From Caldisericaceae bacterium (GTDB lineage: Bacteria > Caldisericota > Caldisericia > Caldisericales > Caldisericaceae), in contig JAINCR010000015.1 of assembly GCA_036574215.1 (NCBI GenBank), positions 1 to 34,950 on the forward strand: a stretch of 34,950 nt of DNA, written 5' to 3'. Shown here piece after piece: positions 4,414 to 30,730 of this stretch (position 1 is its first letter; every line of letters begins with the position of its first letter). The notes beneath the pieces were generated by a model. The model made no database searches. It had not been told where the DNA came from and saw nothing but the letters and a program-made list of their open reading frames with translations. Made by a program: the position numbers and the translations under genes.

Positions 4414-4503
4414 GCCGGAGTGGCGGAATTGGCAGACGCGGCGGACTCAAAATCCGCAGGGGTTCAGAGCTCCGTGTGGGTTCGACTCCCACCCCCGGCA
4501 CCA
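4414..4503 (+). tRNA. tRNA-Leu (anticodon CAA)
   Basis: A full cloverleaf can be folded. The acceptor is GCCGGAG/CCCCGGC with a single A6-C67 mismatch. The D arm follows, then an anticodon stem GCGGA/TCCGC with loop CTCAAAA, placing anticodon CAA at 4448-4450, which decodes UUG. There is a long class II variable arm as expected for leucine tRNAs. The T arm is GTGGG-TTCGACT-CCCAC, the discriminator is A4500, and CCA is genome-encoded at 4501-4503. The A6-C67 mismatch is the only irregularity. Confidence 0.96.
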
Positions 4504-4528: not shown

Positions 4529-5317
4529 ATGGACTTAGGTCTTAAAGGGAAAGTCGCCTTTGTTATGGCAGGGAGTAAAGGTCTTGGCAAAGGTGTTGCA
4601 ATGAAATTCGCAGAAGAGGGTGCTTTTGTTTCAGTTGTCTCAAGAGATGAAAACAACCTTCAAAAGGTAAAAGATGAAATTAAAGCTAAAACTCACGTAG
4701 ATATTCTTACTATAAAAGGTGATGTAACGAACAAAGAAGATTTGCAAAACGCCATCAGTAAAACTGTTGAGAAGTTTAACACAATTCACATTCTGTTTGC
4801 TAATGCAGGGGGACCGCCTTCAGGAGGATTCTTCGATGTTGCAGTTGATGATTATCTTAATGCCGTCAACTTGAATCTTATGAGCACAATTTATGCTGTT
4901 TACGGTGTAAAAGACTACATGATAAAACAAAAATGGGGACGTATTATTGCTTCTACTTCAATTTCTGTTAAACAGCCACTTGATAATCTAATACTTTCAA
5001 ATGTATCTAGAGCTGGTGTTGTAGCCTTTATAAAATCTGTATCAAATGCTCTTGCCACTTATGGAATTACTGCAAATGTGGTTGCTCCAGGTTATACAAT
5101 GACAGAAAGAGTTGAGAGTTTACTTAAGGCGAAAGTCGAAAAAGAGGGTATCTCTTTTGATGAAGCACAAAAATCAATGATTGCTAATATCCCAATGGGA
5201 AGAATTGGCACTGTGGATGAATTTGCTTCAACGGTAGTCTACCTTGCTTCTGAGAAAGCCTCTTACATCACTGGTGTTGTTTTGCCGATTGACGGTGGAT
5301 TTATCAAAGGAGTGTAA
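4529..5317 (+). CDS. SDR-family oxidoreductase-like protein lacking the catalytic YxxxK
   Basis: This 262-aa protein has a short-chain dehydrogenase fold. The cofactor-binding glycine motif is AGSKGLGKG (14-22), NAGG is at 92-95, and the C-terminal IDGG motif is typical of 3-oxoacyl-ACP-reductase-like SDRs. The ATG at 4529 is preceded by GGAGG (4517-4521). The open frame extends upstream through the tRNA but that extension is spurious. In the catalytic block the expected Ser (S144) is kept, but the Tyr and Lys of YxxxK are replaced by S157 and R161 (SNVSR). This matches the atypical FabG-like subgroup that keeps the fold but departs from the SDR tetrad, so the name FabG should not be used. 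The substrate is unknown. Two broken genes follow directly, so an original operon has been disrupted. Confidence 0.88.
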   Translation: MDLGLKGKVAFVMAGSKGLGKGVAMKFAEEGAFVSVVSRDENNLQKVKDEIKAKTHVDILTIKGDVTNKEDLQNAISKTVEKFNTIHILFANAGGPPSGGFFDVAVDDYLNAVNLNLMSTIYAVYGVKDYMIKQKWGRIIASTSISVKQPLDNLILSNVSRAGVVAFIKSVSNALATYGITANVVAPGYTMTERVESLLKAKVEKEGISFDEAQKSMIANIPMGRIGTVDEFASTVVYLASEKASYITGVVLPIDGGFIKGV

Positions 5318-5318
5318 A

Positions 5319-5453
5319 ATGATAAAATTTAACCCAGAGAAAGATATAGAAGCACTTCTTGAAGTTGCAAGATTAATGTGTGTTGCAGCAAGAACTGCTC
5401 CAAAGGGTAGTTGTAGCAAATACATTGGGAGAAATATTCGGAAAAGGTTTTAG
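5319..5453 (+). pseudogene. 5' fragment of a DUF2148 (ferredoxin-domain) gene
   Basis: Starts with an ATG 1 nt after the SDR stop, with AAAGGAG upstream. The first 30 residues, ending LMCVAARTAPKG, match the conserved start of DUF2148 proteins, where an ARTAPK motif is followed by a long cysteine-containing domain of about 180 aa in total. Here homology stops at about 5404-5412. The frame then runs into unrelated sequence (SCSKYIGRNIRKRF) and terminates. The remaining roughly 150 residues of the family, including its cysteines, are missing. This is a remnant fused at the DNA level to the aminotransferase fragment that follows. Confidence 0.7.
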
Positions 5454-5580
5454 AATTGGACATATGGGAAGTGTTACAAAAGACGAACTTCTTGTTGCCA
5501 TTTACAAGATTGGGTTAACATTTGAAGAGTTTGGGTATAAGGTAAACTTGGGGAGTGCCTTAGAGAAATTTTCAAGTTAA
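5405..5580 (+). pseudogene. 3' fragment of a class V aminotransferase gene
   Basis: In a different frame from the preceding fragment, the sequence from about 5412 encodes VVANTLGEIFGKGFRIGHMG followed by KVNLGSALEKF and a stop. This is the C-terminal end of alanine-glyoxylate or serine-pyruvate type class V PLP aminotransferases, in which a FRIGHMG motif lies about 50 residues from the C-terminus. The PLP lysine and about 300 N-terminal residues are absent and no start codon with a ribosome site is present. The last 9 nt overlap the convergent MFS gene. Confidence 0.7.
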
Positions 5581-6795
5581 GGTTCTTTGCATAAGTAAAT
5601 AACCCAAAAATACAAAGAAGCCACCAATAATAAATAGGAGTGCATACCCAAGGTGGTAAGAGATAAACCCTGCAACAAACGAAGCTGTAATAACGCCAAA
5701 ATTAATAGCCATATTAAACATACCTAAAGTTTTACCTCGTGTTTCATGAGATGTTAAGTTAGTAATTTGTAGCGTAAGAGGAATGTAAAGAAATGGCCAT
5801 GTAAAACCTAAAACAATGAAACCTATATAAGTAAAAAGCTTTACAAAACCAACCTTTAAAAATAAGAAGATGCCAATTAATAAAAATATAATACTCCTTG
5901 TAATTAGAACACCTTCAATAAAAATCTTATCGAGTTGCTTGTTCTTACTTGTTTGCCTCACAATGAAAAAAGCAATATTTCCTCCCAAACTATTTGCTGC
6001 AAATAGAAAAAATACAAACTGTGATGAGACTTTAAAATATTCCTTTAAGAAGACTGCAAAAATCGTGAATAATAGGTTAGCACCAAAGAATATTATAAAA
6101 ATCGCAAAGATTAAAAGTCTTAATTGTCTATCAAGTTTTTTAATATTAATTACTGAAAAAAATTCCCAGGTAAACTTTGCAGCTTTAAGAAAAATAATTT
6201 TTGTTGCCCTAATATCTGGGACTATCCTTATTACGATTTTTCTTCTCTCTAATGTAAGAACAGAACTTATCAAAAGTAAAATTGATGAAATAAAAAATAC
6301 GATTTTTAACTTTTTCACATCATCCAGATTTTTTATGGTATTGAGAAGGAAACTTCCAAAAAGCATTCCGATTGTTGAGCCTATGCTATTGTAGAGGTTT
6401 AAATTGTTTATTTGTCTACGCACAAAACCATCGTCACCTGCCTTTGAAAGTTGTAATGTCATTGCAGGCCCTGTAAAGGATATCATGATACCCAAAGAGG
6501 TAGAAAGTAAGTAGTATAGATAAATTGATTTCACAAAAGCCATAAGGATGATAATTAAAGAAGATGAAAGGAAGCTTAAATAAATAAGTAATGATACTTT
6601 ACGAATTTTATCAAGAATTATACTTGAAGATATCGAACCTATGAGGTTCCCCAGAGAAAAAAAGGCAACAGCAACAGAGGCACTTTGAATATTTCCATTT
6701 AGAGCAATAACCACATACAAACTCAACACTATGTTGAGGATTGAAATCGATGCTCCTTGTAGTGCAAAAGAAACAAACCACTTTTTTAAGCCCAT
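5572..6795 (-). CDS. MFS-type permease
   Basis: A 407-aa integral membrane protein with about 12 hydrophobic segments in two halves joined by a basic cytoplasmic loop (ERRKIVIRIVPDIRATK). The loop between TM2 and TM3 has the shortened MFS motif-A-like sequence ILDKIRK. Overall this resembles YfiS/NepI-like or drug-efflux major facilitator proteins, but the substrate cannot be read from the sequence. The ATG at 6795 has only a weak ribosome site. A promoter TTGTTT-16-TATACT (with the -10 at 6823-6828) lies upstream on the minus strand. It is a single-gene unit that ends 9 nt inside the aminotransferase remnant. Confidence 0.85.
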   Translation of the reverse strand: MGLKKWFVSFALQGASISILNIVLSLYVVIALNGNIQSASVAVAFFSLGNLIGSISSSIILDKIRKVSLLIYLSFLSSSLIIILMAFVKSIYLYYLLSTSLGIMISFTGPAMTLQLSKAGDDGFVRRQINNLNLYNSIGSTIGMLFGSFLLNTIKNLDDVKKLKIVFFISSILLLISSVLTLERRKIVIRIVPDIRATKIIFLKAAKFTWEFFSVINIKKLDRQLRLLIFAIFIIFFGANLLFTIFAVFLKEYFKVSSQFVFFLFAANSLGGNIAFFIVRQTSKNKQLDKIFIEGVLITRSIIFLLIGIFLFLKVGFVKLFTYIGFIVLGFTWPFLYIPLTLQITNLTSHETRGKTLGMFNMAINFGVITASFVAGFISYHLGYALLFIIGGFFVFLGYLLMQRTLT

Positions 6796-7010
6796 ATTTT
6801 AAATCCAAAAGAATGCTTTTGTAGTATACCCTAAATTGGGTTATAAACAAAAAGCCTATACTTTATTATGTATATCAAAATAAAAAATCATGTCAAGAAA
6901 AACTAATATGGAAAGAAACCCCCTAAAGGCTTTTCTGTCATCCTGAGGAGCGCATTTTCCATGTCATCCTGCCTTCATTTTCCTTGTCATCCTGAGCCAC
7001 TTTTTTTCTT

Positions 7011-7093
7011 GTCATCCTGAGCACGTTCGCTTTGCTCAGTGTAAACTTAAGCGAAGGATCTCAAAAACCGAGGGGGGAACAGATCCCCCTCGG
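7011..7093 (+). repeat. Composite repeat unit 1a
   Basis: The GTCATCCTGAGCACG core is followed by TTCGCTTTGCTCAGTG and GCGAAGGATCTCAA (7011-7065). CTGAGCA and TGCTCAG form a 7-bp inverted repeat. A second hairpin, CCGAGGGGGG / CCCCCTCGG, occupies 7068-7093. Confidence 0.8.
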
Positions 7094-7157
7094 AACTCCC
7101 CCAAATACAAGAAAACACATGGGGAGCACCCCCTCAATGCTCCCCCCACTTCCTCCT

Positions 7158-7238
7158 GTCATCCTGAGCACGTTCGCTTTGCTCAGTGTAAACTCCAGCG
7201 AAGGATCTCAAAGTTGAGGGGGTAAAAGAACCCCCTCA
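7158..7238 (+). repeat. Composite repeat unit 1b
   Basis: A nearly identical copy of unit 1a (7158-7212), starting 147 nt after it, is followed by the hairpin TTGAGGGGG / CCCCCTCAA at 7214-7238. Confidence 0.8.
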
Positions 7239-28631: not shown

Positions 28632-29297
28632 ATGCCTTTGTATATTTGTCCAACTCCAATAGGAAATTTAAAAGATGTTACTCTACGAACTTTGGAAGTT
28701 TTAAAAAATGTTGATTATATACTTGCTGAGGATACACGTATAACCAAAAAATTGCTAAATCATTATTCTATTAACACTCCATTAAAGAGTTTTCATTCTT
28801 ATTCTAATGAATCAGTTGTTAAAAAAATAATTGTAAACCTAAAGGAAGGAAAATCAATAGCTCTTGTTTCAGATGCAGGCACTCCCTGTGTTTCTGATCC
28901 TGGTTATGTGCTTGTAAAAGCATGCATCGATAACAACATTCCTTACGAAGTTCTCCCCGGAGCAAATGCAATTCTTCCTGCTTTAATTCTTTCGGGATTT
29001 CCTCCTGATAGATTTTTATTCTACGGGTTTTTGAAGAGAAGTGAAAGCAAGATCAGACAAACCTTTGAAAGCATAAAAACCTTTGATTTTCCGGTGATCT
29101 TTTTTGAATCCCCATACAGACTCATAAAAGTGTTGAATATTCTTAAAGAAGTCCTACCTGAGCGACAGATTGCCGTTGTAAGAGAAATCTCAAAGATTCA
29201 TGAAAGCGTTGTAAGAGGAGAAGTTTCATTCGTTTTAGAATACTTTAAAGAAAATCCCCCAAAAGGAGAAATTGTATTGGTTATTAACGGGAAATAG
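28632..29297 (+). CDS. rsmI: 16S rRNA (cytidine(1402)-2'-O)-methyltransferase RsmI
   Basis: 221 aa of the tetrapyrrole-methylase fold. Signatures are PTPIGNL (7-13), LAEDTRITKKLL, LVSDAGTPCVSDPG (78-91), LPGANAILPALILSGFP and FFESPYRLIKVL. It is shorter than E. coli RsmI (286 aa) because the C-terminal extension is missing, as in many small-genome bacteria. It methylates the 2'-O of C1402 in the 16S decoding centre. It is placed as the last gene of the translation/transcription-factor operon by a 7-nt gap. No strong ribosome site is visible, suggesting translational coupling to infB. Confidence 0.93.
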   Translation: MPLYICPTPIGNLKDVTLRTLEVLKNVDYILAEDTRITKKLLNHYSINTPLKSFHSYSNESVVKKIIVNLKEGKSIALVSDAGTPCVSDPGYVLVKACIDNNIPYEVLPGANAILPALILSGFPPDRFLFYGFLKRSESKIRQTFESIKTFDFPVIFFESPYRLIKVLNILKEVLPERQIAVVREISKIHESVVRGEVSFVLEYFKENPPKGEIVLVINGK

Positions 29298-29560
29298 GCT
29301 CCTTCGTCACTATAAGTATAACCCCACAATGCTATTCCCAGCATTAGCCCATTTGATTATTCCAAGAAAAAGCCCCCGCATTCATTGTATGATAACTCAG
29401 TCATTCTGAGGCAAAATCCCGCAGGGGAATTCTGAAGCTCCCCCTCTTGGTCATTCTGACGAGTGCACGTAGTGAACGAGGAAGAATCTTGTCTTTTATT
29501 CGAGGGGGTGGAAAGTCCCCCCTCGACACTCCCCCAAAAAGAATGAGATCCTTCGTTTCA

Positions 29561-29709
29561 CTCAGGATGACCGAGTGCGCCGTCATTCTGACAAGGCATT
29601 TTTTGCCGAGGAAGAATCTCGTCCTTTATTCGAGGGGTGGAAAGTCCCCCTCAACTTCAAGATCCTTCGCAAAATTTACACTGAGCGAAGCAAATGTGCT
29701 CAGGATGAC
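29561..29709 (-). repeat. 150-bp direct repeat, copy A
   Basis: Runs from CTCAGGATGACCGAGTGCGC through GTCATTCTGACAAGGC, a GAGGGG..CCCCTC hairpin and CTTCAAGATCCTTCGC to GTGCTCAGGATGAC. Its right half (from about 29657) is the reverse complement of the long unit seen at 7011-7065. Confidence 0.85.
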
Positions 29710-29862
29710 ACGGGGAGCGTGGGAGTCTTGAAGGGTGTTCCTATTGGTGTCATTCCGAGCGAAAGCGAGGAATCTCCTCTTTTTAAAGTCAAGATCCTTC
29801 GTCGCTATCGCTCCACTTGACTTCGTCAAGGAAAAGAGTGCAGGATGACAAGTAAAAAGAAA

Positions 29863-30012
29863 CTCAGGATGACCGAGTGCGCCGTCATTCTGACAAGGCA
29901 TTTTTTGCCGAGGAAGAATTTCATCCTTTATTCGAGGGGGTGTAATAATCCCCCTCAACTTCAAGATTCTTCGCAAAATTTACACTGAGCGAAGCAAATG
30001 TGCTCAGGATGA
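29863..30012 (-). repeat. 150-bp direct repeat, copy B
   Basis: Same order as copy A, 302 nt downstream, with only scattered differences (for example GAATTTCATCC for GAATCTCGTCC, and TGTAATAATC in the hairpin loop). It ends 14 nt before the livF stop, so on the minus strand its hairpins could act as the liv operon terminator. Confidence 0.85.
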
Positions 30013-30025
30013 AACAACGCTACAA

Positions 30026-30730
30026 CTAAGCACCAAGGTAAGCTGCCTTAACTTTTGGGTCTTCTTTCACATCCTTTGCAGGACCTTCAAAGACAACATT
30101 ACCAACTTCAAGTACATACGCATAGTGAGCAATTTCAAGCGCCATCTCTGCGTTCTGTTCAACAAGAAGCACAGTTTTACCTTCTTTATTGATTTTTACG
30201 ATTGTTTTAAAAATCTCCTCAACAAGTACAGGAGCAAGTCCCATTGAAGGCTCATCCATCATAACAAGGTCGGTATCAATCATCAATGCTCTTCCAAAGG
30301 CTAACATCTGTTGCTCTCCACCGGAGAGAGTGCCTGCAAGTTGTTTTTCACGTTCTTTTAAACGTGGAAACAATTCAAAAACGTCTTCAAGTTTTTCTTC
30401 AAATCGTTTTTTATCTTTAAGCGTCCAGGCTGCAAGTTCAAGGTTTTCTCTAACCGTTAAATCAGGGAACACTCTTCTTCCTTCGGGAACATGGGCAACA
30501 CCAAGTCCAACAATTAAATGGGGTTCCATCTTTGTAATATCAATATCTTTGAAAAATATAGAACCTGCTCTTGGTTTAACAAGTCCAGAGATGGTCCTGA
30601 GAGTTGTTGTTTTACCTGCTCCATTTGCTCCAATAAGAGTAACTATTGTTCCAGCTTTCACTTCAAAACTAATGCCTTTCAAAGCCTTAATTGCTCCATA
30701 GTAAACTTCAAGATTGCTAACCTTTAACAT
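30026..30730 (-). CDS. livF: Branched-chain amino acid ABC transporter ATPase LivF
   Basis: 234 aa from ATG 30730, preceded by GGGGAGGAAAGC. The open frame to 30814 lies within livG and is not used. ABC motifs: Walker A GANGAGKT (36-43), the Q-loop region replaced by the LivF-type HVPEGRRVFPDLTV, signature LSGGEQQ, Walker B VMMDEPSMGLAP and switch His region LLVEQNAEMAL, all typical of LivF. It couples ATP hydrolysis to transport with LivG. It overlaps livG by 14 nt and ends the operon next to repeat cluster 2. Confidence 0.95.
   Translation of the reverse strand: MLKVSNLEVYYGAIKALKGISFEVKAGTIVTLIGANGAGKTTTLRTISGLVKPRAGSIFFKDIDITKMEPHLIVGLGVAHVPEGRRVFPDLTVRENLELAAWTLKDKKRFEEKLEDVFELFPRLKEREKQLAGTLSGGEQQMLAFGRALMIDTDLVMMDEPSMGLAPVLVEEIFKTIVKINKEGKTVLLVEQNAEMALEIAHYAYVLEVGNVVFEGPAKDVKEDPKVKAAYLGA

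Follow-up and report, generated by a model that had tools for sequence, protein, structure and literature searches.

A probable two-gene deletion scar in an SDR-DUF2148-aminotransferase operon of a Caldisericaceae bacterium

The window, i.e. the whole stretch of DNA that was analysed (34,950 nucleotides), is the entire contig 15 of a 1.31-Mb draft genome (G000; 109 contigs, 98% complete) and holds no N. The locus considered here lies between a tRNA-Leu gene and a convergent gene for an MFS transporter, with the following features.

4414-4503, forward strand: tRNA-Leu (ARAGORN), left anchor, found at the corresponding site before the SDR gene in two congeneric loci, L040 (G004) and L041 (G003)
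4529-5317, forward strand: intact gene for an SDR-family oxidoreductase of 262 residues, first gene of the damaged operon (Pfam adh_short_C2, E 3.9e-48)
5319-5405, forward strand: DUF2148 remnant, codons 1-29 of about 167, from alignment to three congeneric orthologues
5319-5453, forward strand: 44-codon out-of-frame fusion ORF, presumed non-functional, in frame within the ORF 5244-5453 and with no Pfam or NCBIfam match
5405-5407, no strand: probable deletion junction, placed to within 1-2 nt, from breakpoints aligned to L040, L041 and L042
5407-5580, forward strand: class V aminotransferase remnant, last 57 codons and stop, frame-shifted, no internal stop, 67-74% identical to orthologues
5572-6795, reverse strand: intact convergent MFS transporter gene, right anchor, 60-63% identical to orthologues beside the intact operon

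The DUF2148 remnant, the ATG of which (5319) follows the SDR stop codon (5315-5317) by one base, comprises 29 residues, MIKFNPEKDIEALLEVARLMCVAARTAPK, that match the N terminus of a congeneric 167-residue ORF (E 1.1e-6, 61% identity over residues 1-31) and are 66% identical to the three congeneric orthologues over 29 codons. The aminotransferase remnant is read in a second frame, which from 5407 gives VVVANTLGEIFGKGFRIGHMGSVTKDELLVAIYKIGLTFEEFGYKVNLGSALEKFSS; its 57 residues (codons 5407-5577, VVVANTLGEIFGKGFRIGHMG...EKFSS, stop 5578-5580) correspond to residues 317-373 of the congeners' aminotransferase and were matched at E 1.4e-19 when the genus was searched with the 374-residue congeneric protein. 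The two remnants are thus in different frames, that of DUF2148 ending at 5453 after 44 codons. In a direct scan the N-terminal remnant has no Pfam or NCBIfam match, because the Pfam DUF2148 model is confined to the C-terminal part that was lost (PF09918, residues 106-166 of the congeneric ORF, E 1e-27), and its identity rests on orthologues and synteny. The aminotransferase remnant, with residues 1-316 absent, has no Pfam match, PF00266 included, and is matched by the model for the aminotransferase BhcA (E 6.9e-8). Taken with the gene order, these E-values exclude a chance origin of the remnant matches.

All of the genes flanking the junction are intact, the SDR and MFS genes being full length and having a constrained substitution pattern. 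The SDR and its orthologues upstream of DUF2148 in the three congeners are 79-80% identical, with changes mostly at third codon positions, and the 3' end of the MFS gene overlaps the aminotransferase stop codon in the window as in the congeners. The nearest solved relatives of the SDR include 2z1n and BacG/YwfH (3u49), and a wider contig search with this protein, from which records near the window were excluded, gave only distant SDR proteins (27-36%). Both the SDR of the window and those of the congeners have SNVSR at the position where we would look for YxxxK, the canonical active-site motif, and the active site is possibly non-canonical. Elsewhere in the window, positions 29290-30030 and 6955-7222 are intergenic mosaics of short dispersed repeats, among the modules of which are CGAGGAAGAATCTCGTCCTTTATTCGAGGGG and CTCAGGATGAC. 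Matches to the 741-bp stretch number 110 in G000 and 50 in G001, but only 3-8 per genome in G002, G003 and G004; some copies lie near contig ends, and the repeat family is expanded in part of the genus.

The three congeners (G004, G003 and G002) keep the full order SDR - DUF2148 (167 residues) - aminotransferase (374 residues, PF00266, E 1.5e-27) - convergent MFS transporter. The layout includes dnaE before the SDR gene in L040 (G004) and L041 (G003), begins with the SDR gene in L042 (G002), and has tRNA-Leu upstream in L040 and L041, where the contig extends far enough. SDR - DUF2148 - aminotransferase is also kept in G006 and G007, which represent two further genera of the family, and the intact order is therefore the ancestral one; the five operons compared (L040, L041, L042, L084 and L085) share order and strand with the operon of the window, and the three congeneric ones also its flanks. 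Alignment of the window with G004, G003 and G002 gives two collinear blocks, and the break between them falls exactly at the junction, across which 1386, 1382 and 1376 bp, respectively, are missing here. The window thus differs from the intact operons in having lost 1.38 kb across the DUF2148-aminotransferase boundary, and in retaining only remnants that are 61-74% identical to the congeners' genes.

Searches of G000 with the DUF2148 and aminotransferase queries match only the junction remnants, and a search with PF09918 gave no match. The only full-length PF00266 protein of the genome, at C84, was considered as a relocated aminotransferase and rejected; it is a cysteine desulfurase of the NifS/IscS type with an IscU-like ORF after it. 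It is possible in principle that an intact copy lies in the missing part of this assembly.

These results bear out the preliminary description in its main points, i.e. that the start of a DUF2148 gene is joined, in another frame, to the end of a class V aminotransferase gene, that both genes are otherwise gone, that well over 1 kb was removed and that relatives should have an intact SDR - DUF2148 - aminotransferase operon. Two other points require amendment. The final glycine of the peptide ARTAPKG, given there as a DUF2148 hallmark, is made by the junction (congeners read ARTAPKA), and the change of frame occurs at a join of 0-2 nt, not over about 10 nt. Of the two peptides for which family searches were suggested there, the aminotransferase tail is matched by a family model and the N-terminal one is not.

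The DUF2148-side fit reaches 5405-5406 (GCT CCA AAG G) and the aminotransferase-side fit begins at 5405-5407 (GTA GTT GTA GCA AAT ACA), the sequence across the junction being GCTCCAAAGGGTAGTTGTAGCAAATACA. The remnants share at most about 2 nt there, unless an AAAGG-like word, which is present at the corresponding place in the aminotransferase gene of two of the three relatives, took part. Exact words common to the 60 nt around the two breakpoints in the intact relatives have a maximum length of 6-8 bp and lie at unequal offsets, and no direct repeat or mobile-element remnant was found in the window at the junction. A repeat-mediated deletion was rejected on these grounds, as was the dispersed repeat family as a cause, which has no copy at the junction, the nearest beginning near 6955.

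We consider it very likely (probability about 0.9) that a single deletion of about 1.38 kb left a scar of two genes, both dead, with the SDR and MFS genes still constrained. The ancestor of the species would have had SDR - DUF2148 - aminotransferase between tRNA-Leu and the convergent MFS gene; one deletion would then have removed DUF2148 codons 30-167 and approximately the first 316 aminotransferase codons, joining the remnants out of frame with loss of both products. The joining would have been illegitimate, i.e. blunt, short-homology or microhomology-mediated, with no long repeat involved. The locus has what such an event should leave: terminal parts of genes that are adjacent and intact in relatives, unbroken synteny on both sides, and a segment absent elsewhere in the assembly. 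The deleted segment contains the whole PF09918 match and an SGSQKALATPP-like segment, which we interpret as the pyridoxal-phosphate lysine motif; because both the entire DUF2148 domain and this presumed lysine region are lost, both proteins must, judging from what is known of the families, be inactive.

The age of the deletion was considered from changes private to the window at sites where the congeners agree. At codon positions 1, 2 and 3 there are 11/70, 11/81 and 12/37 such changes in the remnants and 266/1605, 162/1708 and 403/917 in the neighbouring SDR, dnaE and MFS genes, counts that are only roughly comparable, since dnaE was taken from two congeners and the others from three. There is no significant difference between remnants and intact neighbours at any codon position, with the aminotransferase tail alone showing a weak excess at second positions (9/54, one-sided p 0.066). 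Both remnants are free of internal stops; in simulations of neutral change, the probability that 86 codons stay so is 0.86, 0.47, 0.22 and 0.08 at 1, 5, 10 and 20% divergence, respectively. From the lack of stops and the neighbour-like substitution pattern it follows that most of the divergence of the remnants probably arose while the genes still worked, and that the deletion probably postdates most of the divergence of the species. The recent deletion proposed in the preliminary description is compatible with these data, which constrain its date only loosely.

It may be that the deletion is real in only part of the population and that the deleted form is the one assembled, a special case of the single-deletion reading that we regard as rather unlikely. 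The slight decay of the remnants is as would be expected of a young, possibly unfixed, deletion, but the assembly has no contig for a second allele, though binning could have discarded one. That the deletion is both recent and still segregating, so that a thermophile lineage would be caught in the act of losing the DUF2148-aminotransferase step but not the SDR, is a speculative extension that we hold to be distinctly unlikely; if true, a separate function of the SDR partner could be read out.

An artefact, in which 1.38 kb was passed over by the assembler or in an amplification chimaera while the organism has both genes intact, is improbable, as is the assembly collapse that had been put forward as an alternative to deletion. 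The draft is in 109 contigs, and multiple-displacement amplification can make joins at short homology. However, collapse at a repeat needs a common word of about k-mer length, and because the breakpoints share only the 6-8 bp words described above, with no junction repeat, a repeat-driven collapse is unlikely and a real deletion is favoured, de Bruijn collapse requiring a far longer word. Further, the skipped 1.38 kb is nowhere else in the assembly, and 98% completeness speaks against an amplified single cell. We infer that the deletion, together with the joining of its ends, took place in the organism rather than in the assembly.

It is highly improbable that the leftover ORFs are functional, i.e. 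that a short fusion peptide or a 66-codon protein from the aminotransferase C terminus is made and selected. The reading frame of the tail is uninterrupted from GTG 5380 to 5580, and the rate of third-position change is still above that at first and second positions. Such a protein would, however, have neither the PLP site nor most of the fold, second-position changes in the tail are if anything raised relative to the neighbours, and after 5% neutral change 86 codons would be free of stops in about one case in two. The converse proposal, that the short form is ancestral and that relatives built the intact operon by insertion, fits the patchy distribution of DUF2148 and the aminotransferase in the family but has a negligible probability, since the two pieces in the window are precisely the first 29 and the last 57 residues of proteins that several genera encode in full and side by side, and insertion into such a scar cannot create those ends.

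Several other near-complete genomes of the family (G005, G008, G009 and G010) lack the aminotransferase, and other genomes of the family lack DUF2148. In one relative (G011:C63, L086) the SDR gene is directly followed by the aminotransferase gene, DUF2148 being cleanly absent (the genes are 9 nt apart, within 4540-4580), next to the same convergent MFS gene as in the window; by contrast with the window, the aminotransferase (377 residues) is intact, so that the operon was shortened there by a separate change. With both genes patchy in the family and L086 lacking DUF2148, the loss seems to be recurrent and tolerated. In G006 a second, paralogous class V aminotransferase gene (L026, G006:C187, 106-854) is broken, with an in-frame TAG and a gap at approximately query residues 203-323, and is apparently another decaying aminotransferase gene in the family.

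The deletion in the window is a clear but ordinary gene loss, recorded in a poorly studied lineage, and yields no new general principle. It does link DUF2148, an uncharacterised family, with a conserved operon that also encodes an SDR oxidoreductase and an aminotransferase of the serine/alanine:glyoxylate type, and shows that this operon can lose its last two genes and retain the first. A search of the literature collection used found no paper mentioning DUF2148, and sequence searches found no solved structural relative of it. The intact congeneric aminotransferase is closest in the PDB to serine-pyruvate/alanine-glyoxylate aminotransferases (3zrp, E 4.5e-60; 2bkw; 1vjo), and is near the L-aspartate:glyoxylate aminotransferase BhcA, scoring below the BhcA cut-off and below that of every other NCBIfam equivalog; compared with the 3zrp, 2bkw and 1vjo enzymes, the window has only the last 57 residues left. 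As a whole, the locus resembles deletion-type bacterial pseudogenes formed by illegitimate recombination, with the same out-of-frame fusion, intact relatives and no long repeat. Nothing sets it notably apart from the usual examples of this type, one event having removed two neighbouring genes of one operon.
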